DNA from: Linum tenue
Taxonomy: Eukaryota; Streptophyta; Magnoliopsida; Malpighiales; Linaceae
DNA length: 64,000 nt
Assembly (NCBI GenBank): GCA_946122785.1
Contig: CAMGYJ010000011.1
Span: 18,414,001-18,478,000 of the forward strand
Direction of reading: 5' to 3'
Shown: piece after piece, positions 1 through 50,159 of the stretch
Layout of the letters: each line of letters opens with the position of its first letter
Position numbering within the stretch: position 1 is the first letter of the stretch
Notes under the pieces: generated by a model
Seen by the model: the letters and a program-made list of their open reading frames with translations, nothing else
The model's database searches: none
Told to the model about the DNA's origin: nothing
Translations under genes and position numbers: made by a program

Positions 1-1210
1 CAGAACAATTTGATGCGAAAAATGCGGAGGTCTTAGACACAGGTTCAGATGACTGGCTAGGGTCTTGGACATGAGGAAAAGGCCTTTTAGGTGGAAGTAT
101 TCATAGCACAGGGTTCCACAATTCCAAACCCAACACAATCACAGTCAATCAAACCAATTACTTTCTTTCTGCCATTCTGCATTACTCACATTCTTTAGAG
201 CACAAGAGCGAAAGAGGTCACATAAATCTTAGTATTTCCAAGCCACACTGCTAAGAAACACTACTTAATGGGCACTATTCAGATTTTGGGGTGGCTCTCT
301 TTTGCTTTCATTCATTTTTTCCTTTTTTCATTTCTTGAGAGAACCACCACCTATGCACATTTTTCAAACACATGCCCAACTTTTTAAGAACTACCTCCAA
401 CCATCACTTTATATTTAGCAAAAAACAGCAGAGAACATGTAAAAACCATCTGTGGAACCTTCTAATAGATGCAAAAGGGGTGATTTTCCATTGTAGACCG
501 AAAGAAAGGATAACACGGGTCAAAGGGCTGACTAGGGGGTATGATACATCAGGACAGTCAATTTGGTCGTGGGCTAATCCTATGCCTCCATCATCTTAGC
601 TAATGACAACGTGAATGCTACACATCATGGAAGAGGGAACTATCGCACAAGAAAGAAACGAGCAGGCTCAAATCTCACATGGCTACCTATATGCTCTATC
701 TCTCATTCTGATTCCCTGAGCTAGATGCATAAAAGACTGTCAAGAACAAGTGATCAATCCAAGTCACAGTGGTAAGCAAAAGTTGAAAAAACGGAACCCC
801 TACAAAATTCTACTGCACGTCTCAGTCATCATCATAGGTTATCCTAGTTACAATCAAGTTGTCATGCATTAATTCAAAAGCCATTCGATTCACCAATAAA
901 ATCACAAGTGCCAATATGATCATGGAAACCTTAGTACTTGGAGCCCTCAAATCTCGAGATTTGGACAGCGGACTAGGCTCCAAGCACACATATACGTTCC
1001 AATGAATACAAAGAACCCCCCCCCACACACAACACTTAATGCGACAGTGTCCTCAATGGAGCAGAGAAAAGGGGAACGATGTTACCGTGAAATGAGAGCA
1101 GGAACGGGGACCAGAAGTGGACAGTCAGCAGGGCTAGCATCAACAAAACACACTGGGTGATAGAAACCACAGTTCCAAGTGAACAAACCGAAAAAACAAA
1201 CGAAAGAAAA
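1..1210 (-). other. 3' non-coding region of element A
   Basis: No coding sequence is supported here. The stretch is clearly similar over most of its length to 32380-33780 of element B, with the same order of landmarks: a T-rich tract near 300-330, a block near 600-760, and the structured element at 937-984. In sense orientation it lies between the coding region and the 3' LTR. The small open frames here are not conserved between A and B. Confidence 0.7.
937..984. other. 48-nt structured element, copy A
   Basis: A 9-bp outer stem (CTTGGAGCC pairing with GGCTCCAAG) encloses 2 nt, a 16-nt inner hairpin (CAAATCTCGAGATTTG) and a conserved 12-nt single-stranded joint (GACAGCGGACTA). The same 48-nt plan occurs at 33457-33502, 35138-35185, 35234-35281 and 49781-49828 with paired base changes; see findings. 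Function unknown. Confidence 0.8.
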
Positions 1211-1212
1211 AC

Positions 1213-1269
1213 AAACCTTGGTGGGGTTGCCTCCCCACAAGCGCTTCTTTACCGTCTTTTAGTTGGACG
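1213..1269 (-). other. Conserved post-pol block of element A
   Basis: This block of about 55 bp is almost identical at 36304-36358 (B) and 52525-52578 (C), always just after the end of pol in sense orientation. It contains a hairpin: GTGGGG and CCCCAC separated by TTGCCT. Athila-group elements are known to carry a conserved purine-rich motif at this place. Its role is unsettled (extra polypurine tract, RNA signal or splice signal). Confidence 0.65.
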
Positions 1270-1285
1270 CCAGTAGGGTGGATGC

Positions 1286-1636
1286 TCAGAGGGGTGAAGG
1301 AACAGGTGCCTTCAAGAGCGGATCCACATCGCTCTTGAGGTACAATTTCAGGTGGTGGCCATGCACTCGACGAGTGTGACCACCAGCACTCGTCAACTCA
1401 ACCTGGACATCCGGTAGGAAGCAAGCGAGTGAATACTCAGATGGCCAAGGCGGTCGAGGCTCAGGAGGCGGGACCAGCTCATAGTGGTCTCCGGCTTTCT
1501 TTTGAGCAGGCTTGGCTACCTGCAGCTTCGGCCGCCACTCCTCCTTAATCTTTTCTTTTGGTAACGGAGTGGACGGGAGTGGCGGCGAAAATATGGGAGG
1601 GGGATCCTGCAAAATGGGAAGCACAAAAGGATACAC
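1286..1636 (-). pseudogene. Integrase C-terminal remnant, element A
   Basis: The last about 30 residues (RVHGHHLKLYLKSDVD region) align by eye with the C-terminal tail of the element C integrase (KVNGYRLKLYLGDEVE region). The rest of this 116-codon frame is proline-rich and not recognised. No catalytic D, D or E segment is present: the reverse transcriptase, RNase H and integrase core have been lost between this frame and the protease at 1636-1890. The stop lies 17 bp from the conserved post-pol block, as in B and C. Confidence 0.55.
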
Positions 1637-2060
1637 TACAGACTCGTGCTCCGGTGAGAAACAGCATGCAGAGGCGATGAAACAGGGAGAGTATTAGCAA
1701 TGGAAAATGTTATTCGCTCCTCGCCATCCCTCAAGACTAAGATCCCATCATGTACATCTATGAGAGCCTTGGCGGTGGCCAAGAAAGGCCTTCCCAGTAT
1801 AAGGGGCACTTCTGTGTCCTCATTGATGTCCAAGACAACAAAATCCACAGGATAAAAGAATCTGCCAACCTTAACCAGAAGGTCTTCCACTATGCCCTAG
1901 GATGAACTATAGATCGGTCAGCTAATTGAAGACTCATCCTGGTTGCATTGGGTTCACCTAGGCCTAGTTTCTTGAACAATTTATATGGCATAACATTGTG
2001 ATGGCATTACAGTGGGCATTCGAGTCCTTCGGATTAGGAATGGTATGACCTGACAAGGTA
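1636..2060 (-). pseudogene. Retroviral-type aspartic protease remnant, element A
   Basis: The frame at 1890-1636 reads through a DFVVLDINED - [18 protein letters not shown] stretch, the C-terminal half of the Athila-type protease (ILGRPFL is the ILG-type motif). The upstream part, around 1900-2050, still shows the flanking KKL-LG and MPYKLFK equivalents but is frameshifted. The catalytic D(L/T)G loop, expected near 2000-2010, appears to be deleted: A jumps from the MPYKLF segment into unrelated gag-tail sequence. Non-functional. Confidence 0.65.
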
Positions 2061-2061
2061 C

Positions 2062-13504: not shown

Positions 13505-15175
13505 ATGGATTCCAGTGCCACATCACCAAAGTACGAACGCCGCCCATTTTCGATTAAACTATGGCCCCCTAGTGACAACACGAGGCAGATGCTTGTCGCC
13601 CGAGTAGCGGGAAATCTGAGTTCACAGTCTATTTTCGCTCAAAAGTATGGGACCCTGGGCAAAGAGGAAGCGGAGGAGAATGCAAAGAGGATCGAAGCTG
13701 TTGCCTTCAAAGCTGCAAGCCAACAGTATGATAACGAACCAGATGGTGACGGAGGTTCTGCTGTACAGCTTTATGCTAAAGAATGCAGTAAGCTTATTTT
13801 GGATGTCCTGAAGAGAGGCCCTGTGCCAAAGGAAGACATGGAAGATCTTCCGTCTGAGGAAGGAGACCCTGGCCCGAAGGATAGCGTGGAAGTCATCACA
13901 CCACCTCCCGAGACTTTCTTTGACATTTCCAAGGGATCCAGATCTTTCATAGAGGCAGAGGAGACCGAGGAAATTCTGAAGCCATTGAAGAAGCCTGGAA
14001 ATTCTTATTCAAAGATATGCTTCAGCAACAGGAGCTTTAGTCTTGAAGCTGCTCGTGTTGCCGCACCGGTTCTGGAGTCCATCAAGGACCAGTTAAAGGA
14101 AGTTGACTTGTCTGATTTCATTGCTGGAAGGCCAGAGGATGAAGCTCTTGAGGTCATGACCGTTTTCTCCACTGCGTTGGAGGGCAGCATCCTTAGATCC
14201 CTGAACCTCTCAGACAATGCTTTGGGTGAAAAAGGCGTCAGGGCGTTTGAGGCACTTCTCAAGTCACAGAGTTGCCTCGAAGAGCTCTACTTGATGAACA
14301 ATGGCATTTCAGAGGAAGCTGCGCGAGCAGTTTGTGAACTGATTCCATCTACTGAGACACTTAAGGTCCTTCGTTTCCATAACAACATGACTGGTGATGA
14401 AGGAGCACTTGCAATTGCTCAGGTTTTGAAGCGCTGCCCTTTGCTTGAGGACTTCCAATGCTCCTCCACAAGGGTAGGAGCCGAAGGTGGGGCAGCCTTG
14501 GCAGAAGCACTAGAGTCTTGCACTAAGCTCAAGACATTAGACCTCCGAGATAATATGTTCGGGACTGAAGCTGCAGTTGCTCTTGCCAAGGCAATTCCCA
14601 AGTTTCCTTCCTTGAGCGAGATTTATCTGTGCTATCTAAACTTGGAAGATGAAGGTGCTACAGTTATAGCAGATGCACTCAAGGACTCAGCTCCATCCCT
14701 CGAAGTCTTCGACATGATGGGAAACGATATAACAATTGAAGCGGTTCCTAGTATCGCCGCTTGCATTGCATCGAAGCAGAACCTGAAGAAGTTGAACTTG
14801 GATGAGAACGAACTCAAGGATGAAGGTGCTGTGCAGATTGCAAAGGCCTTGGAAACGGGCCATTCACAGTTGAAGCGAGTGGATGTTAATACCAATGCTA
14901 TTGGTAGGGCAGGAGCTCGTGTATTTGCTAAGGTTGTGCTTCAGAAGCCAGAGTTCGAGTTGCTGAATATCAATGCGAATTTCATATCCGACGAAGGGAT
15001 TGATGAGTTGAAGGAGGCCTTTGAAAAGTGTCCTGAAAAGCTTGGCCCGCTTGACGAGAATGACCCTGATGGAGTAGGTGATGCCGAGGAATCTGATGAG
15101 GAGGATGCTGGCGACGATGATCGTGAGTTGGACTCCAAGTTGAAGCATCTCGAGGTCAATGAAGAGGATGAATAA
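13505..15175 (+). CDS. RANGAP2: Ran GTPase-activating protein with WPP domain, 556 aa
   Basis: Single coding exon. Residues about 15-110 form the plant WPP domain (FSIKLWPPSDNTRQM, with WPP at 20-22, then SIFAQKYG), which anchors RanGAP to the nuclear envelope, cell plate and kinetochores. Residues about 175-512 are leucine-rich repeats (LRSLNLSDNALGEKG, LEELYLMNNGISEEAA, LKTLDLRDNMFG, LKKLNLDENELKDEG) that activate Ran GTP hydrolysis. Residues about 515-556 are strongly acidic (EESDEEDAGDDD), as in all RanGAPs. Length fits Arabidopsis RANGAP1/2 (535-545 aa). The choice of RANGAP2 over RANGAP1 rests on gene order, not sequence. The gene converges with the CHR gene; the two stops are 670 bp apart. 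Confidence 0.95.
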   Translation: MDSSATSPKYERRPFSIKLWPPSDNTRQMLVARVAGNLSSQSIFAQKYGTLGKEEAEENAKRIEAVAFKAASQQYDNEPDGDGGSAVQLYAKECSKLILDVLKRGPVPKEDMEDLPSEEGDPGPKDSVEVITPPPETFFDISKGSRSFIEAEETEEILKPLKKPGNSYSKICFSNRSFSLEAARVAAPVLESIKDQLKEVDLSDFIAGRPEDEALEVMTVFSTALEGSILRSLNLSDNALGEKGVRAFEALLKSQSCLEELYLMNNGISEEAARAVCELIPSTETLKVLRFHNNMTGDEGALAIAQVLKRCPLLEDFQCSSTRVGAEGGAALAEALESCTKLKTLDLRDNMFGTEAAVALAKAIPKFPSLSEIYLCYLNLEDEGATVIADALKDSAPSLEVFDMMGNDITIEAVPSIAACIASKQNLKKLNLDENELKDEGAVQIAKALETGHSQLKRVDVNTNAIGRAGARVFAKVVLQKPEFELLNINANFISDEGIDELKEAFEKCPEKLGPLDENDPDGVGDAEESDEEDAGDDDRELDSKLKHLEVNEEDE

Positions 15176-29236: not shown

Positions 29237-29283
29237 ATGCTAGCTCGATTTTGGATCCCTAGTCGTACCCTTCTGGTTTTGCT

Positions 29284-31983: not shown

Positions 31984-32024
31984 AACTCCCCCACACTTAA
32001 CCGTTTGCTTGTCCCTAAGCAAAC
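31984..32024 (-). other. Polypurine tract and adjacent hairpin, element B
   Basis: 31984-31998 on the minus strand is AAGTGTGGGGGAGTT directly before the LTR TG, the plus-strand primer of Athila-type elements. 32003-32024 is a perfect 8-bp hairpin (GTTTGCTT pairing with AAGCAAAC) next to it. C has the same pair at 48939-48979 with a 9-bp stem and TCCC loop. Confidence 0.85.
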
Positions 32025-33816: not shown

Positions 33817-35067
33817 TCATAACCCGGTACTCTCGCCACTAGAAGTCATCGCCACCATCGCCGGCAGGTTGTGGGTATTGGTCCTCATACCCCGGGACTG
33901 GACGAAAGGATAGTGAACTGCGTTCGGGTCCATGCCCAGGAAGGACATGATGTAGTGCTGGCCGGACATCAGACGACGGCCGCGGTCCCGCTCACGATCA
34001 AGGCTGGCGTGAATGCGCTCATGGCCGGCCAGAATGCGCTCGTTCTGCTGAGCGATGGCCGCCAACTGATCAGTGATGGGCACCACCACGGGGGGAGGAG
34101 ACCTGGGAGCAGGAGATCTGGGTGCAGCGGAGGAGCTCGCGGGAGCCTGGGCACGAGGGGTAGTACGGCGAGGAACCCGGCGTGACCCAGCGGCGCTGGA
34201 CTCTGGCTGGTCTCCCGGGGCTGGCTCAGGTGGCTGGGGAAGGCCCGCAATCCAGCGAAGACGCCCTTGGCGGGCCACCAGGTGCTGGGAACGGAGGTTG
34301 TTCTCGCTGAAGGGAGTGGGCCCGTGGACCTGGGTCATCCCAGTGATGTCGACCTCGTACTAGCGTACCAGGGCCATGATGACCGGCCCACAGACAAGGT
34401 TGTGATCCCGGTGAGAGGCAGCTTTCCCGATAGTCCGGGCGATCACCGAGCCCAGCTGGATGGTGTCGTCAGGGCGACCCATCGCCTCCAAGAAGAACAG
34501 GGTCCGGAGGGTGACTCGGTTGGCTGAGCCCCGGCTGGGGGTGTAGGAACTGGTCAGCAGGTGGTTGAGGATGCGCCACTCAGGCCGGAGGAGGAAAGCC
34601 CGTGTCTGGCTGGCGACGTACTCCTCGTCCACGTTGTCGGGTAGGCAGATCTGCCGGAAGTACGCCTGGCAGGGAAAATCGGTGGGATCAGTGAGGTCCA
34701 GGTGCAGGACCCCGCTGCTGGCATGCGGGGAGTTGACCCCAAGTGCACTGGCGAGCTCCCAGTAACTGATGGAGTGCTCGACCCCGCCAAGTGTGAACTG
34801 AACTGCGTCGCTATGGTCGCGATTCCCCCTCTGGTTGTGGCGGAAGGAGGCATAGAACTCCCAGACGAGCTCCTGGTAGGTCGGCTCGGCAAGGCAGAGA
34901 AGGCGCCGCCAACCATAGGCCTGCACCGCGGCCTCCATCTGCAGCCTGCAGTGAAGCTCATCGAACATCGCAAAATCGAGGTACAGGTGCTCGGGAATGG
35001 TGCGATTGCGGATAGTCCGCAGTGCATGGCGCTGGGTGATGCTCAAGTGGTCGAGGTAGCGTTCCAT
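33817..35067 (-). pseudogene. Env-position ORF of element B (Athila-type, unknown function)
   Basis: Starts MERYLDHLSITQRHAL at 35067 and runs to 34360, where a single in-frame TAG (34360-34362) interrupts it. The same frame then continues to 33817. The N-terminal part (GVEHSISYWELASALGV, FLLRPEWRILNHLLTSS, FFLEAMGRPDDTIQLGS, HNLVCGPVIMALVR) resembles the plant transposon protein domain seen downstream of pol in Athila elements. The C-terminal part is proline- and serine-rich, then coiled-coil-like (QLAAIAQQNERILAGHERIHASLDRERDRGRRL). I see no signal peptide or membrane segment, so env applies only to its position. A TTTGCAG acceptor-like site sits 4 nt before the ATG, suggesting a spliced subgenomic mRNA. 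Confidence 0.7.
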
Positions 35068-35137
35068 GACCCTGCAAAGCACAAGAACGGACAAAATGGG
35101 ACACGAACAAACAGGGTCAATGTTAGTCAAGATCACA

Positions 35138-35185
35138 CCGGGAGCCCTCATATCGAAAGATATGGACAGTGGACTAGACTCCCGG
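35138..35185. other. 48-nt structured element, copy B2
   Basis: Outer stem CCGGGAGCC with GACTCCCGG (8 of 9 paired), inner hairpin CATATC-GAAA-GATATG with a GNRA loop, joint GACAGTGGACTA. It lies upstream of the env-position ORF. Confidence 0.85.
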
Positions 35186-35233
35186 AGATAAAAAAAACAT
35201 ACCCATCACACGAAAAGCACACAACCAAATTCG

Positions 35234-35281
35234 CCGGGGGCCCTCAAATCGAGCGATTTGGACAGCGGACTAGGCCCCCGG
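35234..35281. other. 48-nt structured element, copy B3
   Basis: Outer stem CCGGGGGCC with GGCCCCCGG (9 of 9 paired), inner hairpin CAAATCGAGCGATTTG, joint GACAGCGGACTA. It starts 96 bp from the start of B2, so the pair looks like a local duplication that has since co-varied. Confidence 0.85.
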
Positions 35282-35865
35282 GAAACAAACACCAAATCCA
35301 ATCCAATTAAGCATCAAGCAACCAACCACACCCAAAATCACCATAAACCCGTAAATAATTCCAACATGCAAATGGTAGGCCGAGGAACGGAAATCCCAAG
35401 ATAAAAAATAGCATGCAAAGAAAGCCAGCAGCCTACCAAATCCTTCTCAAATTATTGCACAATCTCAAGTTCTTCACCTAACTCTAGGTATCGATTCTCC
35501 AAAAATATAAGACAAGGCAAAGATAACACACCTGGAGACGCAAGAAGATACCCTGAGAAAGGTGAAGAAAATGGCAAAAAGCTCCCAAAGTCGCCAGAAA
35601 ACTCGCCGGAGAACTCACCGTCGGCGATCCAACCTCGGCCAAACTCGCCCAAACCTCTGGGGAATGTGCTCCTCGACGCCAGGAGCGTGGGGGTGGTCGC
35701 GGTTTTTGATTTGGAGGTCGGGGGAGCGAGTTATGGCCGGAAAACCGAAGGAGAGGGTGAAAGTTCGACTTTCCGGTGAGAGAAAAGGGGGGGGGGCAGG
35801 GTTTGTGAAAAATGGGAGAAATGAGGGGAGGGGCTGAAAAATGCGTTTTTATAGGGGGGGTTTAA

Positions 35866-36108
35866 AACACGGGCGGCAAAACACGGCCGTGTTCTGGCCG
35901 TGTTCCGCCCGTGTTTTAAAGGCCGAGACAGTGCTCCCCCCACTTTAAAACACGGGCGGGCTCCCTTCAAAACACGGCCGTTTTTTGGAAGCCCTTCTGC
36001 CCGTGTTTTTACTGCCGCAAGCATCAAAGGCAAAAATGGCAAAACACGGGCGGGCAAGGGGCAAAACACGGCCGTATTTTGACCCCCTGCTGCCCGTGTT
36101 TTCACTGC
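35866..36108. repeat. Internal palindrome array, element B
   Basis: Same site type as the B LTR array: AAAACACGGGCGG, AACACGGCCGTGTTCTGG, CCCGTGTTTT, about ten half or full sites. It lies between the post-pol block and the env-position ORF. Spacer sequence near 36088-36110 matches the LTR array spacer near 43518-43540 in inverted orientation (CTCGGC-R-GT-R-AAAACACGG). Confidence 0.8.
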
Positions 36109-36303
36109 CGAGTCCAAATTGCCTCAATTTCCAAGTTCCAATTTCAAACCACCCAGACTCATTCGTGCCCCGGCTCGAAAATTTACTCAATCACACATAA
36201 AAAAGCACCGCCAGAGGCACGAAATACGTTCCAGACAGACTCTATGACTCAAAAACCGACAAAAATGAAAGAACTAAAAAAAACAAAGGGTAGAAATGCA
36301 AAC

Positions 36304-36358
36304 CGTGGTGGGGTTGCCTCCCCACAAGTGCTTCTTTACCGTCTTTTAGCTGGACGCC
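36304..36358 (-). other. Conserved post-pol block of element B
   Basis: Almost identical to 1213-1269 and 52525-52578. Includes the GTGGGG-TTGCCT-CCCCAC hairpin and the GCTTCTTTACCGTCTTTTAG segment. Confidence 0.7.
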
Positions 36359-36364
36359 CATGGC

Positions 36365-39300
36365 GGAACTAAGGGTCCGCGAGATCCACTACCAACTCCG
36401 CACGTTCGACCTCGTCTCCCAGGTAGAGCTTGAGACGATGGCCATTCACTTTAAACGGCTCAGTTTGCGGGTTGGCAATTTCGATTGTGCCATACGGGAA
36501 CACCTGTGTGACCGTGAACGGTCCAGACCACCGGGAGCGGAGTTTTCCGGGAAAGAGCTTCAGCGAGAGTTATAAAGGAGAACTCGATCACCAACCTAGA
36601 ACTCTTTCGGACCCCGCAACCGGGCATCGTGTAGGCGCTTAGTGCGCTCCTTGTACAGCTTGGTGTTCTCATAGGCGTGGTAACGCCACTCTTCCAGCTC
36701 CAACATCTGCATTTTTCACTCAGTACCTGCAACACGAACATCCAAGTTGAGCAGCTTAAGGGCCCAGAAGGCCTTGTGCTCTAGCTCCACGGGCAAATGG
36801 CATGTCTTTCCATAGACAAGCCGGTACAGTGAAGTACCAATGGGTGTCTTGTAGGCAGTGCGATACGCCCAGAGAGCATCATCGAGCTTGGTGGACCAAT
36901 CTTTGCGGGACTGATCCACCGTGTTGATATGACTTGAATCGGATTATCAGCCGCTACCCACGGTGTATGGGCTCAATGTTATTTGGGTTCGGGTTCTGGG
37001 CCTGGTCTGTAACCGTTTCCTTTGTCAGATTGGATTAGGTTTAGACCAACATGGAGAAGTACTATAAATACTTCTCATACTCCTCTGTAATCTGTAATCT
37101 CCTCAATATAGTGAAATCGGCTCTCTCTCGCCCGTGGACGTAGCTAACACACATTGTGTTAGTGAACCACGTAAATCGTGTGTCGTGTTTTCGATTCTCG
37201 CTTTCGTATTCTTGCTTTGTCGATTCTGGTGATTTCCCGATCCGTAGCAGCGCGTTTATAACACACCGTTTTCTCCAGGATCCGCTTGAGCTCCCGGTTC
37301 GTCAGCTCGGCCTGGCCACTGGTCTGAGGATGATAGGCCATGGACACCTTGTGAGTCACACCATAGCGAGACAGTAGCTTATCAAATTGGCCCTGGAAAT
37401 GGGTGCCTCGATCGCTTATGATGGCTCTAGGTGTCCCGAACCGGGAGAATAGCTGCTTCAAAAAACCACAAACACGTCTAGCATCATTAGTGGGCAAAGC
37501 TTGCGCCTCAGCCCACCTAGAGACGTAGTCAACAACAACCAGAATATAGGTATTGCCAAAAGATGGAGGGAAGGGGCCCATGAAGTCGATACCCCAGACA
37601 TAAAAAATCTCACAAGTTATAAACACATTCTGGGGCATCTCATCACGGGCAGAGATGTTACCTGACCTCTGGCATCGGTCGCACCTGCGTGCGAAGGCGT
37701 CTGCATCCTTGAAGAGCGTGGGCCAGTAAAAGCCCGACTGGAGCACCTTCCTCGCCGTGCGGTTTCCTCCGTGATGACCGCCAGTAGGTCCCTCATGACA
37801 GTGAGATAGAATGCCCTCCATCTCACTCTCCATAACACAACGACGGATGATCCCGTCGGCTCCGATCCGAAAAAGATGAGGGTCATCCCAGAAGTAGTAC
37901 TTCAGATCGGAGAAAAACTTCCTCTTGGCGTGAGTTGCATCCCCTTGGGCAGCTGCTGGCCCACCAAATAGTTCGCAAAATCAGAATACCAGGGGTGACA
38001 CTCTCCACCAAGCACATCATCATCAACCTCTCATCTGGGAAGGAGTCGTCAATCTCCTCCACGAGGTTGTCCGCAGGAGGTGCGTCCAACCGGAGAGAGA
38101 TCAGCTGCAACATTTTCTGCTCCCTTCTTGTCCCGGATCTCAATATCAAACTCCTGCAGTAGTAAGATCCATCGTATGAGCCGAGGCTTGGCATCGGCTT
38201 GCTCATCAGGTATCTAATCGCGGAGTGATCTGTGTACACGGTCACATGGGACAAGACCAGATAGGGGCGAAATTTATCGAAGGCAAACACCACTGCAAGC
38301 AGCTCCTTCTCTGTGGTGGTGTAGTTCTCCTGGGCATCATTAGAGTCTTCGAGGCGTAGTAGATAGGTCGGAAGTGTTGATCTCGCCTCTGCCCCAAAAC
38401 AGCTCCAACAGCAAAGTCACTGGCGTCGCACATCAGCTCAAATGGTAGGGACCAGTCAGGAACAACCATGATAGGAGCTGGGTGAGCTTCTCCTTCAAGG
38501 TGTGAACGCCGCTGTGCAAGCATCAGTGAACTGGAAGGGGGCATCCTTCTCCAGAAGCTTAGTTAGGGGCAGGGCGATCTTCGAGAAATCCTTGATGAAC
38601 CGCCTATAGAACCTGCATGGCCAAGAAAACTCCGGATCCCCTTAAGATGTAGGAGGAGGCAGCTTGCTGATAGTCTCGATCTTTGCTCTGTCTACCTCAA
38701 TCCCCATCTTGGAGATCTTGTGCCCAAGAACTATGCCTTCTCGAACCATGAAGTGACACTTCTCCCAACTCAGTGCCAGGTTCGTTTCTTCACACCGTTT
38801 AAGAACAAGTTCCAGGTTATGGAGACAGTGAGAGAATGAGTCTCCATAAACCGAGAAATCGTCCATAAACACCTCCATGATCTCGCCGACCAGACGGTCA
38901 AAGATGGCGAGCATGCATCGCTGAAAAGTGGTGGGGCGTTGCATAGCCCGAATGGAATCCTCCGGTAAGCAAATGTGCCGAAGGGGCAGGTGAAAGTGGT
39001 CTTCGCCTGGTCCTCCGGTGCAATAGGGATCTGAAAGTACCCGGACATCCCATCCAAGAAGCAGTAGAACTCGTGCCCCGCCAATCTCTCCAGCATCTGA
39101 TCAATGAACGGCAGCGGGAAATGGTCCTTCCGAGTGGCGTCGTTGAGACGCCGATAGTCGATGCACACGGTACCCAGTCACCGTGCGCATCGGGATGAGC
39201 TCGTTCTTCTCGTTAGGCACCACGGTCATCCCACCCTTTTTGGGCACCACCTGGGTGGGACTGACCCACTCGCTGTCAGAAATGGCGAAGATGATCCCCG

Positions 39301-39740
39301 CGTCCATCAGCTTCACGATCTCTGCCCGAACCACAGCCTCCAGGTTCGGTGTCAATCTCCTCTGCGGCTGCCTCACTGGCCGCATCTCATCCTCCAGCAG
39401 TATCCGGTGGAGCAAAAGGAGGGGCTGATCCCCCGGATATCTGTGATCTTCCATGCTAAAGCTCGCTCGTACTGCTTCAGCAAGGCCACCAGTCTGGTCT
39501 TCTGCTCGGGTGTGAGGGTCGAGCTGATGATGACTGGCAGCTTATTCCCCTCCCGGAGAAATGCATACTCCAAATGAGGAGGGAGGGGCTTAAGCTCCAG
39601 CTCTGGTGGTTCCTCCAAGGAGGTGGTGATGCGGGGAGGATGAGATCGGTTTAAACAGCCTGTCGCCCTCCAAGAAGGGGCCACTCTCCAATGCGGCCAA
39701 CTGCTCCGCCAGCTGCGGCTCCTGCGATGCCTGCTCACCT
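36365..39740 (-). pseudogene. Reverse transcriptase, RNase H and integrase remnant, element B
   Basis: Reverse transcriptase pieces at 39454-38642 include [21 protein letters not shown] and the active-site FMDDFSVYG (the YVDD equivalent). RNase H at 38544-37883 has [16 protein letters not shown] and YTDHSAIRY. Integrase at 37833-37270 has the HHCC finger ([12 protein letters not shown] - CDRCQR), then FMGPFPPS and [14 protein letters not shown]. It resumes after the solo LTR at 36919 ([25 protein letters not shown]). The C-terminal tail is at 36741-36365, with an in-frame TAG near 36590. Pieces are joined by one- or two-base indels relative to C. No chromodomain is present, as in the Athila/Tat lineage. 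Confidence 0.85.
36922..37263 (+). mobile_element. Solo LTR, copia-type, inside element B integrase
   Basis: 342 bp starting TGTTGATATGAC and ending GTTTATAACA, flanked by a perfect 5-bp duplication CACCG (36917-36921 and 37264-37268). Element C has one CACCG and no insert at the matching place (near 53141). A TATA-type TATAAATA lies near 37066. The CCCGTGGACGTAGCTAACAC stretch (from 37130) is of the kind found at the R/U5 end of small copia LTRs. No internal region remains, so recombination between LTRs probably removed it. Confidence 0.92.
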
Positions 39741-39991
39741 AGCAAAATACAACGCTCAAGAGCATCATCAGTACCCGCACTCGTGATGGCGAGTGCGGTC
39801 TCAAAATCGGAAGCACATCACAGTAATCTATGTCATCATGCAAATGAGAATGTTTCCCATTGTCAGACACAGAAAAAGTAGCCTGTTCATCACCAGCACG
39901 CAGATCAATTTACCACTATGCACATCAATAAGCGCCTTGGCGGTGGCGAGAAATGGTCTACCCAAAATCAAAGGCACATCCACATCCTCAT

Positions 39992-42270
39992 TTATATCCA
40001 AAATAACAAAATCAACAGGATATGTGAATGCACCACATTAACAAGCAAGTCCTCAATGATACCCCTAGGATGCACGATAGAACGATCAGCTAACTGAATG
40101 CTCATCCTAGTAGCTCTAGGTTCACCTAGGTCTAGCTTCTTAAACAATTTATAGGGCATGACATTTATGCTAGCGCCTAGGTCCGCCAAGGACTTTCCTA
40201 CATGCATGCTGCCAATAACAAGAGGGATAGTGAAACTCCCTGGGTCTTTGCGCTTCTCGGGCAGCTTGTTCTGCAGGATAGCAGAACACTCCTCGCTGAG
40301 CATCACTGTCGAAAGATCCCCAAGTTTCTTCTTGTTGGTGAGGAGGTCTTTCATGAACTTGGCATACTTGGGCATCTTCGACAGTGCCTCCACGAACGGC
40401 ATGCTGATGTTGACCTGCTTCAACATTGCCATGAACTTGGCAAACTCTGTCTCCAGCTTGTCTTTATGAAGTCGAGTGGGGAAGGGCAGCTGGGGTGTAT
40501 GCTCCTTAACCACAGGTTGCGGCTTGGGAGCAGGTGCTGCGCTGCCTTCCCCCACTTCTGCAGTATCAGCTGGAGGTGTTGAAGCAGGTAGTGGTCGTCT
40601 CGCCTGGGCTGGGCAGGAGCAGCAGATATGGTCTTGCCACTCCTGGTGGTGATGGCGTCCAGCTGCTCTGAGGGTCACGAGGATTGGGAACAGTGGTGGC
40701 AGGCAGAGTCCCCGGTGCCCTGGTAGTGTTCTGGCGAGCTAAGCTCCCAATCTGATTCTGGAGATCCTGCAGAATGGCACCTTGGTTTCTCTGGCCTGCC
40801 TCCAGTGAGGCTATGTTCTGATCCATCCTCGTGAAATTCGCCTGACTGGTGGTCATGAATGCCTGCAAAATATTCTTCAGATCAGCCATCTGAGTATCTG
40901 GAGCTGCGGCTGCTGGAGGCTGAGCAACTGGCGCTGGGGCTGCTGGAATGGCTGCCCTTGCCTAGGCTGGTAGGGCTGCTGCTGTGGTGGGGCCCCTGCC
41001 TAGCCTGGAAGGGCTGCCTCTGCTGAAAACCACCTGCTGGTGCTGGGAAACCAGGTGGTTTGTTGGTGTTGCTGCTCCAGGCAAAGTTGGGATGCTGGCG
41101 CCATCCCTCATTGTAGGTATTGCTGTATGGGTCCAGGCGCCGAGCATTGGCGATGAAGTCCACCTGCTCTTGGGGAGTAGAGGACTCCCTCATAGACTGA
41201 CAATCCTCCACCAGGTGGTTCGGGCTCTCACACCACTGACACTGAGCTACTGGAGGCGTAGCTACACCTCGGCCCGGAAGGAGACTGTTAGGCTGCTTCA
41301 ATGTCTGCACCAACTCAGCCACCTGCTGCTCTAACCCGGACCTGGCCTCCATAGCATGCACACCCCGGTCCCGGGAATGTCTGCCTCTGCTGCTTCTGCC
41401 CCAGAATGATCTCGGGCAGCCAAGGTACTGATCATCTGGTTCAGCTCGGGTGGAGTCTTAGTAAGGATATCCCCTCCTGGGCATAGAGACTCGATCACCC
41501 TCTGGCTGTCTGGGTGAGGGCACTGTAGAAGTTCCCCACTGTGAAAGCATCGCTGAAGCCATGATGGGGACACTGCCAGAAGTATCCCATGTACCGCTCC
41601 CATGCATCACGAAGGACTCATCTGGCTCTTGGCGGAAGTGAGTGATCTCCCGCTGAATCTCTGTGGTCTTCGATGCCGGATAGTACCTGTGCACGAACTT
41701 GTCAGCCAGATCGTCCAAGAGGTGATGGACAGTGGGGCTGGGTCCAACCACCTCTTAGCATTCCCCGCCAGAGAATGGGGGAAGAGGTGAAGGCGGATTG
41801 CGTCATCCGGAACACCGTTCAGCTTGAACCCGTTTGTCAGCTGCAGAAAACGGGAAAGATGTACCCGGGCCTCCTCATCCTTCAAGCCATGGAACTGGAT
41901 AGAGGATGTAATGAGTTGAATCCAGCATGGCTTGATCTCAAAGTTGTTTGCTGGAATCGGCGGATAGAGGATGACCGGGCGGATGTCAGCAATCGCGGAG
42001 TGTAGTAATACTCCAGGTGGGACCCGGTGGTGGTGGATGATGATGGACCCCAGTTGCCTGGGGATTGGGGTCGTTCCCCAGGAACTGGTTCTTTGGAGGT
42101 GGGTTGTGATCGCCTTCCATCTCGTACTCGTCCTCGGACTCGCTGCTCAATTGGCCGTCTCTGCGCTCTTTCGTAGCCAGTCTAGCTCGCTGTTGTCTCC
42201 TAAGTTGGCGGCTGGTGCGTTCAATCTCTGGATCCAACGGCAGTAAACCTCCCGACTGGCTACGGGTCAT
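39992..42270 (-). pseudogene. gag and protease remnant, element B
   Basis: Starts MTRSQSGGLLPLDPEIERT at 42270. The gag capsid-like region is spread over frames at 41885-41331 (LFPHSLAGNAKRWLDPAP, HFRQEPDES). The zinc knuckle CQWCESPNHLVEDC is at about 41255-41215. The Q/P-rich nucleocapsid follows. The protease frame 40678-39992 carries DLGASINVMPYKLFKKLDLGE, with DLG in place of the usual DTG, as in Athila proteins. At least five frame changes. Compared with C it retains eight residues (GWRQHPNF) after the knuckle that C has lost. Confidence 0.85.
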
Positions 42271-42394
42271 GCACTATCTGCACACAATCAAGCAATGCAA
42301 ATCGTGAAGGCACAAGTGGGAAGGAACAAAAAACTCAATGCGAAAATGAAAATGCTAAAGTAACAGAAATCACTTTTCTTCAACAACCTAGCCG

Positions 42395-42411
42395 TCCCCG
42401 GCAACGGCGCA
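42395..42411 (-). other. tRNA-Asp primer binding site, element B (one base lost)
   Basis: The + strand matches the 3' end of tRNA-Asp except that one C of GGCGCCA is missing. It lies 6 nt from the LTR start at 42418. Compare the intact sites at 3663-3680 and 58249-58266. Confidence 0.88.
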
Positions 42412-42417
42412 AAAACT

Positions 42418-43765
42418 TGACTCATCCTACTGTCACTCTAGAAAATGGCCAAGTGTAACCACTTCCTAAAGCGTAGTATAGCGGGTTTGGGTTTTAATGT
42501 CAACTCGGGTCCTAGATGTGATGACTACTCAGTGACGTCGTATTATCTAGCAATGAAAATTTAGTGAAGATCTAAACTAACAAGCAAGCAAAGAACTAAA
42601 CGGTTGTTTTCAAGTTAAGAGAGGTCACCCGGATATGGTTCCCCCTAGACTGCAGTTAAGCCGGATTGTAATTACCAAGTTCAATTTCTATGATAAGTAT
42701 ACTGCGGAAGGTTCTCAAACAGTTGAAGTCTCGACTAAAGGTCTTCAGACCCTCTCAATCTGAGTCTCTAGCGGGCGACTAACCTCCACCGGAGTAAACA
42801 GATTGAGCCCTATGAACAAAACCTCCACTACCGAATTGAATTCGGTACGAATAGTGAATTGGCTCCTCGACTAAAGTCACCAATTCACTACCTTCGTTAA
42901 GGATACTCTATCAACCTAGGCAGATATTATCATTCTAGTTAAAGCAGGAACAACAGGAATTTGATCAGGATTCATGCCATTCAATCATTCAAACCTCAAT
43001 CGAATATAATCAAATCATAGAAACAGTACTTGGGTTCATACAATCAATCCTAACATACAGATCTAGGGTTTCCCACACCAGATGAATGAGAGAACTACTC
43101 CATGGAGAAAGAAGCAAAAGCAGAATCAGCGGAAATATACTGTGAAGATGGATTTCTGCTCCTGGACGTTGAATCAGCACTTCTCCAAGCTCAAGCCAAG
43201 CTCCAAAGGTGATGAAGATCAAGCTAGGGCACTTGGAGACTCTTGTTCGTCGCTTTCTCTCTATAGGAATCGCTCTGTCTCTCTAAAACTCGAATCTCCT
43301 CTCAATTTGGCTGAAATCTGCCTAAAAGGGCATCACTGGCCAGAACACGGTCGAGGGCACGGCCGTGTTCTGGTCCAGCCCGCCCGTGTTTTGGATTTGG
43401 CATAAAAACACGGCCACGTGCCTTGGGAAAACACGGGCGTGTTCTGTGCAAAACACGGCCGTGTTCTGTCTCAGGCCTGCCCGTGTTTTTTAGCTGGTTC
43501 AAGCCACACATGGGCAGTCTCGGCGGTAAAAACACGGCCAGGAACACGGCCGTGTTCTGAGGGCCTCCTGCCCGTGTTTTGGCCCTGGCTCGTCCAAACG
43601 TCTTCCAAACGATCCGAAACTTGCGCTTTGCCTTCCTTTTGACGCCTGGGACCTGAAATAGAACAAAGTAGCACAACCCGGCGTAAAATAGGCCAAAACA
43701 CACAACCATGCTCCGCAAATGAATAAGAAATATGGGTATAAAATCATGCAATTACATCGTTATCA
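42418..43765 (-). repeat. 5' LTR of element B
   Basis: 1348 bp with the same ends as 30618-31983, containing the palindrome array at 43341-43582. It is better preserved than the 3' LTR within the array (e.g. AACACGGCCGTGTTCTG intact near 43455). Confidence 0.93.
43341..43582. repeat. Palindrome array, element B 5' LTR
   Basis: Full sites: CACGGCCGTGTTCTGG near 43360, AACACGGGCGTGTTCTG near 43430, AACACGGCCGTGTTCTG near 43452 and ACACGGCCGTGTTCTGAG near 43543. They alternate with CCCGTGTTTT half sites. U3 position in sense orientation. Confidence 0.85.
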
Positions 43766-43770
43766 ACATC

Positions 43771-46658
43771 CACAAAGCCATCTTTGATATGAAACCGTTC
43801 CAGGCGCCCGGGCCAGACGGATTTCATGCTGCTTTCTTCCAGCATTTTTGGAGTGTGGTGGGGAAATCCCTTTCAGATATGGCCATCTCTTTCTTTTTGA
43901 CAGGTTCCCTTCCAGAGGCAGTCACGGAGTCCACGCTGGTTCTAATCCCCAAAGTGGAAGCCCCTGAGAGAGTGAACCAGCTCAGGCCAATATCTCTCAA
44001 TAATGTTTGCCTCAAGAGTATTACAAAGGCCATGACCTGCCGGCTATGTTTGCCTCAAGAGTATTACAAAGGCCATGACCTGCAGGCTGAAGCCGATTAT
44101 GAAGAAGCTGGTGTCTCCCAGACAGAGCAGTTCCATTCCAGGTCGTCAGACTACTGACAACATTATTGTCGTTCAGGAAGTTCTCCACTCTCTCCGGAGA
44201 AGAAGGGGCAAAAAGGGGGGTCTTGTTTTCAAAATTGACCTCGAAAAGGCGTATGACATGCTCAGATGGGATTTCCTTAGGGATACGCTTAAGGAGGTTG
44301 GACTGCCGAGCACCTGGATTAGCTGCATCATGTACTGTGTGGAGCATAACAGGATGAGGATCAGATGGAATGGCAAACTATCTCAGGCCTTCACCCCGTC
44401 GCGTGGAGTGAGACAGGGAGACCCCCTCTCGCCTTGTCTCTTTGTGTTATGCATGGAGCGATTATCTCACAGATTGATCAGGCGGTTGCCGAAGGAAAGT
44501 GGAAGCCTGTTAAGATCACTAGTACAGGGCCGTCTCTGACACATCTTTTCTTTGCAGATGATCTCCTTCTGTTTGCAGAGGCAGAGAAGCGACAAATCCA
44601 GGTGGTGAAAGAGTGTCTTGCTGACTTCTGCTATAGCTCGGGCCAGAGGGTGAACTACAATAAATCTATCCTCTTCGTGTCCTCGAACATAGCCAGGCGG
44701 AAAGCAGAACAGTTGAGTGCGCAGGCAGGAATACCTCTGAAGACGGCGTTGGGAAGATATCTCGGGATATAGGCTATTCAGGAACGAGTGAATAAAGGGA
44801 GATACCAGCCCTTACTGCTTCGAATTCAGAAAAAGATGGCGCCTTGGAAAGCCAAACGACTTTCCTTTGCGGCTCGTCTCACCGTGGCTAAATCTGTTAC
44901 TGCATCCTTGCCTGTTTACACAATGAATACTAAACTAATCCCAAGCGGTGTTTGCAGGAGCATTGACAAGATCACCAGAGACTTCATTTGGGGGGACGAG
45001 GAAGATCGGTCCAAGATGCATCTTGTGGCATGGGATAAGTTGACGATGGCAAAGGGGCAAGGAGGCATCGGTCTCAGGCCAACGCGGCAGGCTAATCTGG
45101 CCATGCTGGCAAAGAGCGGTTGGCGTTTGATCCAAGAAAAAGAGAATCTGTGGTCTCAACTCTTGATTTCTAAAGACGGAGGTCGGCGACAGGGTCTGGA
45201 GATCATCCAGAAATCTCAGGGAAGTTCCTTCACTTGGAGCAGCTTCTCGAAAGCTGTCGGCTTGCTCAGGCAAGGCTGTACGTGGAATATTAAGAATGGG
45301 AAAGGTACTAAGTTTTGGTTGGATCCGTGGGTTTTGCAGGTTCCACTAAAAGAGAAGGCGATTGGTGTCATCCCGGAGGAGTTGGAGTCGGCAGCAGTAG
45401 CTGATTTTGCTCGAGATGATGGCAGCTGGTGCATTGAGTCTTTCCAGGAGCTTCTTTCGCTTGAGGTCTGTGAAAAGATTTTGAGCACAGCAGTCGACAA
45501 GCTATCAAGAGAGGAAGACAAGTTGTTCTGGTCAGCGACGGTGGATGGGCGATTCTCCTGCAAGTCAGCCTATGACCTCATCACTGGTCAAAGTCAGCAG
45601 CCTAGTGATAAGATTTGGGAAACCATCTGGAGGCTACCGGTTTCGGAGCGAGTTAGAAGTTTTGTTTGGTTGGTCATGCAGGGGAGGATAGCCACCAACT
45701 CGCTGAGGTTCAATAGGAAGATTGCTCCCACTTCGTCCTGACTGCGGTGTCCTGATAGGCCGGAGACCATAATCCACATTCTGAGGGATTGCGGCCCAGC
45801 TCTCTACTTCTGGTCAAGACAAGTGCCGCAGCAATATCAAGCGGATTTTTTTGGCAGGGATCAAGACTCTTGGCTGCGGGACAATCTTAACAGTGATAGG
45901 GAGTCCCTCTCAGGTATTAACTGGCCGGCGTTTTTCAGCATGGCCATCTGGCTCCTTTGGAAGAACCGCTCGACAGCGGCCTTTAAGGGAGTCGGGGCGG
46001 CTCTGTTAGCTCCCTCTCTGCTTCACTCCATTACAGCCAAGTGCAAGTTGTGGAACGAGTCTTGGCATGCTCCGGTCCCTTCTCGAGTTCGAAGAGACAG
46101 CAGGTGGTGCGCGTAACTGCGGAAATCGGATGGAGCTACCCTCCCTCTGGTTGGGTTCAGGTTAACACTGACGGGGCCTCAAACGGCAATCCGGGGCCGG
46201 CTGGGGCTGGAGGACTCATCCGTGATCATCAGGGGTGCTGGATGGGAGGGTTCATGGCAAATATTGGTACGGCAACAGCAGGGCTAGCTAAGCTTTGGGG
46301 TATTTATTATGGGTTAGAGATCGCTTGGAAGCTTGGGTTCCGAGCGGTCAGGATTGCTTCGGACTCTCAGTTAGCGATTCAGTTAATTAAGAATCGGATT
46401 GACCCTATTCATCCGTATGCTACTCTGTTGGGGCTTATTCGCAGGAAGATGAGTCTGGATTGGTTGGTATACCTGTCTCACACATACCGGGAAGGGAATA
46501 GAGCCGCGGACTGGCTCTCGAAGCACAGTCTCGTCTATCCTTACGGTATGCATGAGTTGGCAGATCCACCGTCAGGCATCAGCCAGATCCTTCAGGAAGA
46601 CATTAGGGGCATTACTTTTGAGCGTCGAGTTGTGGCGAACTCCTGTTTCTCTTCATAA
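43771..46658 (+). pseudogene. LINE B ORF2, 3' part: reverse transcriptase, zf-RVT, RNase H
   Basis: Picks up the frame left at 30617. Reverse transcriptase motifs: KPFQAPGPDGFHAAFFQ, STLVLIPKVEAP, LRPISLNNV, KIDLEKAYD, GVRQGDPLSPCLFVL and the active-site FADD at 44551-44562. After a stop near 44770, 44788-45741 holds the thumb/zf-RVT region (WGDEEDRSKMHLVAWDKL, FWLDPW, FSCKSAYDLI, RVRSFVWLVMQGRIAT). 46041-46658 is an RNase H with all four acidic positions visible (VNTDGAS, GIYYGLEIAW, IASDSQLA, REGNRAADWL). Defects: a 43-bp tandem duplication at 44003-44088, a frame change near 44460, stops near 44770 and 45740. Confidence 0.88.
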
Positions 46659-47052: not shown

Positions 47053-47573
47053 AATGTTTTGCTTACGTAGCTAACACAAATGTTGATTCACCCAATTTAA
47101 ACCTACCATGTCATATAATTCGGCCCGCCACGTAAGAAAATCCCACACAATCCAACCAAACCACATAACCGACCCTGCCTCTCCTCTTCTTTTTCTTCCA
47201 ATTGAAAATCTCCATCTTGGTTTCATATTCTCCTTCTGCTTCTGCCTCATCAATCATAATAGTGGGAGTTTTTATTGGATGATGAATCATACTTGGTCTT
47301 AGATAGATTCAAGAAATCTCTCTCAACCACAATACGAACAACCAGACCCATCTTGAATTGAGCGGAGAACAAAAAAATTTCCCCTTTTGGCCAAAACCCA
47401 GAGCAAACCACGATTGGGAGCTCTTGAGGTTTTGCTGACGCGGGAGGAGGAAAGAATCAGGAGCATAGCATTCCACAATTGGGGATATGGTCTGCGATTA
47501 AGGATCCAAAGAGGCGATCTTCTAACGATTTACCAATGACGGTGGAGGATTTTCTGGTAGATCTTCTTCTTGG
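47053..47573. other. Left interior of the Mutator-like element
   Basis: Unique sequence between the left terminus and element C. A frame near 47488-47575 (LPMTVEDFLVDLLLG) is gene-like in composition, and a matching stretch continues at 59638 across element C. This could be a captured gene fragment (Pack-MULE), but I do not recognise the source gene. Confidence 0.4.
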
Positions 47574-47578
47574 CCAGC

Positions 47579-48938
47579 TGACTCACTCCTACTGTCACTC
47601 TAGAAAATGGCCAAGTGCAACCACTTCCTAAAGCGTAGTATAGCGGGTTTGAGTTTTATTGTCAACCCGGGTCCTAGATGTGATGACTACTCGGTGAATT
47701 CTTGTTATTTAGCGGTGAACTTTTAGTGCAACTCAAGCAAACAAAACACAAAGCAAATAAACGGTTGTTGTCAAGTCAAGAGAGGTCACCCGGATATGGT
47801 TCCCCCTAGACTGCAGTTAAGTCGGATTGCAATTTACCAAGTTCAGTTTTCATGAAAGTTATACTGCGGAAGGTTCTCAATTAGCCTGAAGTCTCGACTA
47901 AAGGTCTCCAGACCCTCTCAATCTGAGTCTCTAGCGGGCGACTAACCTCCACCGGAGTAAACAGATTGAGGCCCTAATGAACCAAACCTCCACTACCGAA
48001 TTAACTTCGGTACAGAATAGCGAATTGGCTCCTCGACTAAAGTCACCAATTCGCCACCTTCGATTAAGGGTACTCTATCAACCTAGGCAGATATTCTCAT
48101 TCCAGGTCAAAGCAGAAACAACATGAATTTGATCAGGATTCAAGTCATTCAATCATGCAAACCTCAATCGAATATAATCAATTCACAAACTCTGTACTTG
48201 GGTTCATACAATCAGACCTAGCATACAAATCTAGGGTTCCCCATACCCAGATGAATGGGGAAACTACTCCATAGAGAAAGAAGCAAAAGCAGATTCAGAC
48301 GCGGAAATCATACTGTGAAGATGGATTTATGTTCCTGGACGTTTAATCGCACTTCTCCAAGCTCAAATCGGGCTCCAATGGTGTTGAAGATCGATCTATG
48401 GCGCTTGGGAACTCTGGTTCGTCGCTTTCTCTCTCTAGGTATCGCTTTCTCTCTCAAAAACTCGGAACCCTCTGAAAATTGGCCTTCTTCCTCTTTTAAC
48501 AGCTGCCATCGCGATACCCGGTCGAAATACCCGGTCGGGTATTCTGGGGTTCGACCGGGTATTTCCAGAACGCGTCGTTTCACTAAGAGGAGAAATCCCC
48601 GGTCCATCCTCATAATCCCCGACCGGGGATTTTAGGCCATCGCCCGGGCCCCCTTCTGCTTCTCACGAGTGCCCGAAGGGAAAAATACCCAGTCAAGGCC
48701 AGAATATACCCGGTCGGGTATTTCTTCCTTTGGCCGGGTATTTTGGTCCAACAGCCTCCTTTGCCCCAACTTCGCTCCTTTCGACCCGGAACTCGTTCCT
48801 TCGCCTCGATTCCAACGCCGGGACCTGAAATATGACATAAACACACAACCTAGCGTGAAATCGGCTTAAAACACGAGATTCCTCATCACAGACGGCTTCA
48901 GAATAGGGGTGAAAACATGTGTAAATATCGGTCTATCA
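47579..48938 (-). repeat. 3' LTR of element C
   Basis: 1360 bp, TGACTCACTCC to CGGTCTATCA on the + strand. The half next to 47579 is recognisably similar to the B LTR. The U3 half is distinct and holds the TACCCGGTCGGGTA-type array at 48513-48745. Confidence 0.95.
48513..48745. repeat. Palindrome array, element C 3' LTR
   Basis: Sites of the type AATACCCGGTCGGGTATT (near 48527-48543 and 48707-48724), plus the variants ATCCCCGGTC / GACCGGGGAT near 48595-48630 and an AACGCGTCGTTT palindrome near 48568. It occupies the same LTR position as the ACACGGCCGTGT arrays of A and B. The 5' LTR copy is at 59205-59440. Confidence 0.85.
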
Positions 48939-48979
48939 AACTCCCCCACACTTAACCGTTTGCTTGTCCCCAAGCAAAC
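48939..48979 (-). other. Polypurine tract and adjacent hairpin, element C
   Basis: Minus strand AAGTGTGGGGGAGTT (48953-48939) abuts the LTR. 48958-48979 is a 9-bp hairpin, GTTTGCTTG / CAAGCAAAC with loop TCCC. Identical in layout to element B. Confidence 0.88.
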
Positions 48980-50159
48980 CTAACTCAAACCAATGCAACT
49001 CTCCAGACCTCTATAGCAACAAACAACCTCGATCGTAGGTAGCGGACGTCCTAGATCATTTAGCAGCTTACGAGGTCAACCGACGCACAAGTCATCTCAT
49101 AGCCTCTTCGGCGAGAACGCTAGTCTCGAATCGGCATCATGGCAAATAGTGAACAGAGGACAAATGAATCGTGGATGAAGAGACTCTCACAAACAAAAGA
49201 TCATGGACTCACATTAACTCAAGGTGCTCGATTTTCTTTGTGAACATGGTTGGAACCCTTTTCTCTTCTTTTTGCTTGTTTTTCTGTTTTTTCTTCTTTT
49301 TTTTTCCCGGGTTCCAACCTGTTTCTGCAGAAAACGGGGGCTCCCACCTAGCAAAGGTTTTGCGGGAGCCCGGCTCTTACCGGCCATGCCAGGAGCGGGT
49401 GTCTCGAGCCTCGTGCGGGAGAAAGACATGTAAGGGGGCTGGAGGTAGTAGGTGGAAATTGGGAACGGATCCCCGTCTCCCCTTACACACTTTCGCCCTA
49501 TTCGCACGGGAGATTTTATTTTAAAGCACATTTCGAGCACCTGTTACATTCAGAACATGATACAAGAGTCCATGACAGGCAGAGAGTCCACAACACCACA
49601 CAATTCAAGGGTCCTAAGATCACTAATTCACTCAATCAACCAACACAATATGAAGAAGAAATGAGACTTCTTAAATGCATCAACATCCTCCATAGTGCTA
49701 CACTACCTCCCTAGGTTGCAAATCACTACAGAGACTGTCAATTCAAAGCATACTGAGCAGGCAATTGCAAGGAACACGTACTTGGAGCCCTCAAATTTAA
49801 AAATTTGGACAGTGGACTAGGCTCCAAGCACACAAACAGAGCTAATGCAGTCAAAAGGTAAACATCCCCCCCACACTTAAGTCGACATTGCCCTCAATGG
49901 AGAAGAGGGAAGGAAAGGGGAACGATGTTACCGGTATGCACAGACTGCAGGAGATTGGAAATGGACCAGTCGGCATGGGACGGACTGGAGAGAGGACCAG
50001 TCAGGCACACAGGCAGAGCTAAAAGAGACCAAAAAGCTCAAACACATACGTTAGGTCCAACGGTCAGCCCAATAGTACAGCATCCAAAATGAAAAGAAAA
50101 AGAAACAAAAACCGACACAAAACAGATAGTTTGCATGATGACATAGATAAAAACTCTCA
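48980..50159 (-). other. 3' non-coding region of element C
   Basis: Between the env-position ORF and the PPT. T-rich tract at 49255-49310; the structured element is at 49781-49828. Short open frames on both strands have no match in A or B. Confidence 0.65.
49781..49828. other. 48-nt structured element, copy C
   Basis: Outer stem CTTGGAGCC with GGCTCCAAG, inner hairpin CAAATTTAAAAATTTG, joint GACAGTGGACTA. Same position relative to the env-position ORF and LTR as copies A and B1. Confidence 0.85.

Follow-up and report, generated by a model that had tools for sequence, protein, structure and literature searches.

The window analyzed here is a 64,000-nt stretch of the Linum tenue genome (contig CAMGYJ010000011.1, positions 18,414,001 to 18,478,000 of the forward strand), which contains three related long terminal repeat (LTR) retrotransposons, named A, B, and C below. 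Together they carry five copies of a 48-nt unit, all in the same orientation and in element sense. According to a domain scan, the host elements are read on the minus strand: C encodes gag, reverse transcriptase, RNase H, and integrase in the gypsy order (Retrotrans_gag, RVT_1, RNase H, Integrase_H2C2, rve), and A retains a piece of gag. Judged by sequence, the elements are Ty3/gypsy and Athila-like. The 5-bp flanks agree, by eye, at 4/5 bases in B and at 4/5 in C. Element A is interrupted by the window start, and its alignment to B and C jumps from the 3' noncoding region straight to gag; hence, pol and the 3' open reading frame (ORF) seem to have been lost in the part seen. The elements, their 3' ORFs, and the copies of the unit are as follows.

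30618-43766, minus strand: element B, with LTRs at 30618-31984 and 42418-43766 (93.8% identical)
34360-35067, minus strand: first open piece of the 3' ORF of B; the second piece is at 33817-34338
47579-59632, minus strand: element C, with LTRs at 47579-48938 and 58273-59632 (98.8% identical)
50325-51443, minus strand: 3' ORF of C, 372 aa
937-984, minus strand: copy A, in the 3' noncoding region of element A
33455-33502, minus strand: copy B1, behind the 3' ORF of B, with an outer stem of 12 bp
35138-35185, minus strand: copy B2, in a predicted intron in the 5' untranslated region (UTR) of B's 3' ORF
35234-35281, minus strand: copy B3, also within that predicted intron and upstream of B2 by 48 nt
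49781-49828, minus strand: copy C, behind the 3' ORF of element C

Because of the minus-strand reading of the host elements, the preliminary description of this locus gives the reverse complement of the RNA. In RNA sense, each copy comprises a 9-bp stem, the 5' joint UAGUCCRCUGUC, a 6-bp hairpin with a variable tetraloop, the dinucleotide AG, and the closing stem, so that the two stems enclose an asymmetric 12/2-nt internal loop (UAGUCCRCUGUC / AG). The five copies with this plan had been predicted, and all are present; the predicted conservation of the joint also holds, although the joint had been assigned to the wrong strand, as in the RNA it lies on the 5' side, with AG on the 3' side. Several details have changed. 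B1 had been placed at 33452-33505, while the 48-nt copy itself spans 33455-33502 and the excess consists of three base pairs unique to B1. The GAAA loop ascribed to B2 is UUUC in the RNA, hence no GNRA loop, and a longer inner hairpin ascribed to copy C is not there, as the hairpin has 6 bp and 4 nt in all five copies, C included. The sense loops are UCGA (copy A), UUGA, UUUC (copy B2), GCUC, and UUUA, the loop being the most variable part of the unit. Among the unpaired columns, 13/18 are invariant, and the variable ones are column 16 in the joint and the four loop columns. The gap between B2 and B3 is exactly 48 nt, or one unit length, and this spacer contains no recognizable copy.

All 75 pair cells (five copies by 15 pairs) are standard pairs in the sense RNA. 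Among the five copies, five pairs (2-47, 3-46, 6-43, 24-35, and 27-32) have changed on both sides, one (8-41) has changed on one side, from C-G to U-G in B2, and the remaining nine are invariant. The B2 change is a C-A mismatch on the plus strand and a U-G pair in the sense RNA; the other four copies are perfectly complementary on both strands. Thus, the stem strands indeed change jointly while the joint is kept, as had been proposed. In shuffles that take no account of kinship among the copies, the covariation score was reached in 0/500 cases and the count of double-changed pairs in 2/500. When the partner was slid by 1-3 columns, all six versions had zero double changes. Given the six variable positions of the 5' arm, the probability that all five variable positions of the 3' arm are their partners and complementary to them is p ~8e-6, assuming independence and ignoring the relatedness of the copies. 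Pairs 2 and 3 lie side by side and have changed in both B2 and B3; these changes could have arisen at once, and the five double changes then represent perhaps four events. In addition, columns 16 and 29, in the joint and the loop, respectively, are G-C in copies A and B3 and A-U in B1, B2, and C. A column covarying in this way arises in 1.9% of trials when the loop letters are shuffled. A tertiary contact between these positions would be possible, but it is only a lead, because it was noticed post hoc and the difference between A and B1 could be CpG decay.

The exact joint occurs five times in the window, in the five copies. With two mismatches allowed, there are eight matches, which is not above chance (mean 6.36; eight reached in 33/100 shuffles), and the three inexact ones are unrelated sequences. 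A search of both strands for the shape only, requiring at least 8/9 outer and 6/6 inner pairs and having no sequence term, found 10 places, that is, the five copies and five others, of which the one at 16538-16585 also has all 15 pairs; in 40 shuffled windows such matches averaged 1.3, or 0.05 with all 15 pairs. A covariance model scored the five copies, from which it had been built, at 74-78 bits, its other matches up to E = 10 being solely the same five places on the opposite strand (12.8-18.8 bits); within the window it detected no 48-nt unit outside the elements or in the LTRs. Folded in isolation, the sense strands of the copies had stability z-scores from -2.63 to -4.67, the extreme value belonging to B1 with its longer stem.

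Judging by their alignable surroundings, copies A, B1, and C occupy one ancestral site. Elements A and B align over 1.1 kb, with 940/1079 aligned bases identical; the block alignable between A and C measures ~155 bases and stops at the motif. A second polypurine tract precedes the copy in each element.

1016-1028: second polypurine tract of A, 31 nt before copy A
33536-33549: second polypurine tract of B, 33 nt before B1
49866-49878, minus strand: second polypurine tract of C, 37 nt before copy C

All six GTGTGGGGG tracts of the window are on the element sense strand. An extra polypurine tract in the linker has been reported for Athila4 and Calypso (PMC2829016, as excerpted). We also observed a different hairpin (GTTTGCTTGGGGACAAGCAAAC) directly before the 3'-LTR polypurine tract of C, at 48939-48979, with a similar one in B at 31984-32020, while a shorter CATTG-AGGR-CAATG-like hairpin precedes the second tract in C. 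Having the changes at pairs 2 and 3 in common, copies B2 and B3 are likely paralogues. The flanks of B2 and B3 agree with each other at 14-19/48 positions and with those of the other site at 10-25/48, against 36-40/48 for the motif. The case for a conserved structure, as far as it can be made from these alignments, rests on the five double changes and on the joint kept at two sites with unrelated flanks.

The relatives of the 3' ORFs among the matches listed are all Linum trigynum proteins, 12/12 for C (67-76% identity) and 22/22 for B (33-76% identity). The family PF20167, said to have a relationship to Athila ORF1 (PMC11728184, as excerpted), is carried by 7/12 and 20/22 of these, respectively. 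The first open piece of the B ORF matches PF20167 weakly (44.4 bits with the cut-off at 45, E 2.3e-11), and no Pfam family was found for the C ORF at E 0.001. Of the 34 relatives scanned, only the predicted protein P0030 reveals a sixth copy of the unit, at the place of B2. P0030 starts upstream of the ORF in a different frame, and its alignment with the translated B2 copy is gap-free (PGV*STVHIFRYEGSR versus PGAYSTVHIFRCEGPR), with 29/61 residues agreeing with the B reading across the hairpin, the pyrimidine-rich stretch, and the ORF start. In B, the hairpin is separated from the predicted AG by 66 nt, and in P0030 this interval spans 22 codons. Five pairs are fixed by back-translation, and each of these is Watson-Crick; pair 24-35 pairs either way, its 3' base being unlike that of every window copy; the remaining nine pairs are compatible, though not fixed. 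P0030 also fits A-U at columns 16 and 29. In the same scan, P0025 and P0026 matched the regular expression for the hairpin peptide, but inside the ORF, and a protein search for peptides that read through copy A gave four candidates, none of which matched at E up to 10.

B2 and B3 are located within a predicted 5'-UTR intron of the 3' ORF, whose boundaries were assigned by eye.

35072-35531, minus strand: predicted 5'-UTR intron of B's 3' ORF (CCAG/GTGTGTT ... ACTAAC ... TTTGCAG/G)
35844-35856, minus strand: TATA-like box before B's 3' ORF, preceded by a repeat array

The donor-like CCAG/GTGTGTT is at 35532/35531 and the branch-point-like ACTAAC has its A at 35123; these are followed by a pyrimidine-rich stretch, TTTGCAG ending at 35072, and ATG at 35067-35065. 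From the 3' end of B2 it is 15 nt to the predicted branch-point A and 66 nt to the predicted 3' splice site. By eye, the same plan is seen in C, with a TATA-like sequence at 52000-52011, a donor at 51775/51774, an intron at 51774-51448, and ATG from 51443. A third polypurine-tract-like sequence (51517-51531) occurs in this predicted intron, where B has hairpins. The repeat arrays before the TATA-like boxes (~35864-36118 in B and ~52010-52364 in C) have matching arrays in the 5' LTRs (~43358-43598 and ~59208-59438, respectively). Each array matches the LTR of its own element, while the arrays of B and C do not match each other at E 1e-3, which suggests an internal promoter that evolves together with the LTR, as with the RMs of Sireviruses. 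The latter are repeated palindromes found before env and in the LTR (PMC2829016, as excerpted), and the LTR-type arrays before the ORFs resemble them. The 48-nt unit does not: RMs are short and palindromic, in nearly all cases around a CGG-CCG core, and occur in LTRs too (same excerpt), whereas the unit is absent from the LTRs, is no simple palindrome, and has a conserved unpaired core. A promoter and an intron of the ENV ORF have been mapped in Athila6A of Arabidopsis (PMC4977677, as excerpted), and the layout predicted here is therefore known in kind. The excerpted text mentions no conserved hairpin in Athila6A, the likeness being one of layout.

The fold of the 48-nt unit is thus well supported, and selection on the folded sense RNA is the best reading of the motif, because of the double changes, the U-G pair in B2, the conserved joint, the variable loop, and the paired L. 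trigynum copy at the place of B2. The preliminary description had left the choice between a folded RNA and a cruciform; the former is preferred, and the DNA cruciform is less favored, although the other strand is nearly as stable.

Several known elements offer parallels. In simple retroviruses, elements for unspliced RNA are sited behind the last ORF. The constitutive transport element (CTE) of Mason-Pfizer monkey virus is located between env and the 3' LTR, has internal loops, and binds TAP/NXF1; its sequence and fold differ from those of the 48-nt unit. Foamy viruses, too, have an internal promoter and an internal polypurine tract. In the excerpted text of PMC3856414, the CTE is a structured cis RNA element for unspliced RNA, which is what the 48-nt unit may be as well. 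The closest parallel in layout is provided by the direct repeats (DRs) of Rous sarcoma virus (RSV), a repeated retroelement RNA element flanking v-src, a gene downstream of pol; the reported effects concern cytoplasmic RNA level, stability, Gag expression, packaging, and assembly, with conflicting results (same excerpt). The DR is a 115-nt repeat of an avian virus, while the unit has 48 nt and another fold, so the two are likened by layout and not by sequence. Copies on both sides of the ORF, which had been noted previously, are found in B only; copy C lies solely behind its ORF. This placement is like that of the RSV DRs and the CTE. The purine-rich C element of foamy viruses, a cis element positioned at the branch point serving the 3' splice site of env, represses splicing and has been shown to be inactive in export (PMC5294762, as excerpted). 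B2 would resemble it in lying close to a branch point, here a predicted one; unlike B2, the C element is no covarying hairpin but a set of purine repeats, bound by SR proteins, whose position overlaps the branch point.

We tentatively propose that the 48-nt unit is a cis-acting, structured, protein-bound RNA element for the unspliced RNA of Linum Athila-like LTR retrotransposons, a possibility that we take seriously without regarding it as settled. The hairpin probably helps the element to control splicing, export, or packaging of its RNA. It would act in the sense transcript, where the two stems would present the conserved internal loop. From the fixed asymmetric loop, the freely re-paired stems, and the free terminal loop, we infer a protein-binding site, and the protein would most likely be the element's Gag or a host RNA-binding protein. 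The hairpin could then mark element RNA that still holds the ORF intron: bound hairpins just upstream of the branch point in B would lower the use of the ORF 3' splice site, and nuclear exit or packaging of the unspliced RNA would be aided by the copy behind the ORF. The ancestral site behind the ORF and the extra B copies near the branch point are both paralleled in retroviruses, which favors one role, the handling of unspliced RNA. Among the roles suggested previously, splicing or unspliced-RNA handling is favored over control of translation, as B2 and B3 are in the predicted intron close to a branch-point-like sequence.

A number of observations weigh against this interpretation. The covariation sample consists of five mutually related sequences and one partly readable predicted protein, P0030, which is read from protein, not DNA, and whose joint differs at column 12 (G to C or T). 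The count of further pair types shows no excess, being reached in 258/500 shuffles. Between A and B, 73/1095 windows of 48 columns differ at two columns or fewer, so the motif is not exceptionally conserved. For the four copies folded on both strands, the other strand is nearly as stable (z -2.28 to -2.73), and in 241-271-nt contexts, computed for the copies other than A, z is just -1.02, -1.95, and -1.92, though the hairpins persist. The predicted intron of C has no copy, and therefore the hairpin is not needed for the intron as such. Finally, as the foamy virus C element lacks export action, splicing and export may be alternatives.

The joint changes in the stems might also reflect arm correction without any RNA function, in which a reverse transcriptase or a DNA polymerase switches template within a short inverted repeat and one arm is rewritten to match its partner; paired changes would then arise in single events, free of selection. 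We consider this unlikely. Reverse transcriptases do switch templates, perfect complementarity on both strands in four of the five copies is what such correction would yield, and the adjacent changes at pairs 2 and 3 of B2 and B3 may be one event; what it leaves unexplained is the joint kept at two sites with unrelated flanks (36-39/48 in the motif versus 10-25/48 in the flanks) and pairing of the sense RNA without perfect complementarity, as in the U-G of B2 and the changed pair 24-35 of P0030. About as improbable, in our estimate, is an RNA element that belongs to the 3' region but has a different task: forming the 3' end, stabilizing the RNA, aiding translation of the ORF, or taking part in a step of plus-strand DNA synthesis at the second polypurine tract. 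The ancestral site behind the ORF, 31-37 nt past that tract, would suit it, as would the extra linker tract known in Athila4 and Calypso (PMC2829016, as excerpted). However, B2 and B3 are not near such a tract and, if the intron is real, would be spliced out of the ORF mRNA, while the tract at 51529 in the intron of C has no hairpin.

A DNA-level element, be it a protein-bound cruciform, a single-stranded DNA hairpin, or a tiny mobile hairpin inserting without flanks, would account for two kinds of sites lacking flank similarity and for the similar stability of both strands. It is very improbable nonetheless, given that B2 is fully paired only in the sense RNA, that five of the five copies are in element sense, that the window has no copies outside the elements, and that 0 structure-bearing matches were found in the viral and prokaryote collections (which hold no plant genomes as such). 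A loop-loop dimerization signal of the genomic RNA, raised in the preliminary description, is scarcely credible: although the copies are short stable hairpins in a retroelement RNA, a self-complementary loop is seen, by eye, in 1/5 (UCGA in A), and the variation of the loops speaks against kissing-loop dimerization.

We also compared the unit with known motifs. Neither a self-cleaving ribozyme nor any other Rfam family matched it at the gathering score; up to E = 10, Rfam gave six matches around copy C, all far below that score, and 0 around B2/B3. K-turn and iron-response-type motifs were dismissed by eye against their consensus. A 19-base pattern had five matches in viral contigs, representing one homologous stretch without continuation of the hairpin (one ends at the end of a contig piece), which we take as chance. 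The structure-bearing pattern had 0 matches in viral_contigs and 0 in genome_contigs, and none of the six pattern matches of the reverse transcriptase-integrase piece of C in viral_contigs was a relative. In the literature text, four spellings of the joint occurred in two of the papers listed, each of them on human material.

In the window, Rfam yields only snoR71 (RF00097), above the gathering score at 41556-41660 and 57433-57539 on the plus strand, where it runs antisense to the region of the gag ORF in each of B and C; the match in C falls within the ORF 54657-58124. Plant annotation with this model may thus catch retrotransposon gag. The ORFs at 27718-30620 and 44075-46658 on the plus strand, adjoining the LTR elements, look, by eye, like pieces of non-LTR (LINE) retrotransposons. 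An intact gene of host type lies at 13505-15175 on the plus strand; a domain scan revealed a WPP domain as well as leucine-rich repeats in it, and we take it to be similar to plant RanGAP.

Among the literature matches listed, none described a hairpin of this sort in elements of Athila or Linum, which is no proof of absence, as the subscription literature (e.g., Wright and Voytas, 2002) was mostly outside the search. Structured cis elements in retroelement RNAs are of a known kind; the fold of the 48-nt unit and its setting in a plant element appear to be new. A bolder version, which we regard as doubtful, is that this RNA element for unspliced RNA represents a new class of folds and serves a plant retroelement in constitutive transport or packaging; its intron duplicates would have arisen in one family, so that the extra copies would be confined to the unspliced RNA. 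Covarying cis RNAs have rarely been found in plants: a survey of 130 genomes yielded 16 candidates, generally with modest covariation, and retrotransposon words have 0 occurrences in that paper (PMC12218528). It is poorly known how plant retrotransposons split one transcript among the spliced ORF mRNA, the gag-pol mRNA, and the packaged genome. Being compact, with an invariant core and stems that re-pair freely, a motif of this kind is suited to searches across all plant genomes and to direct tests in reporters.

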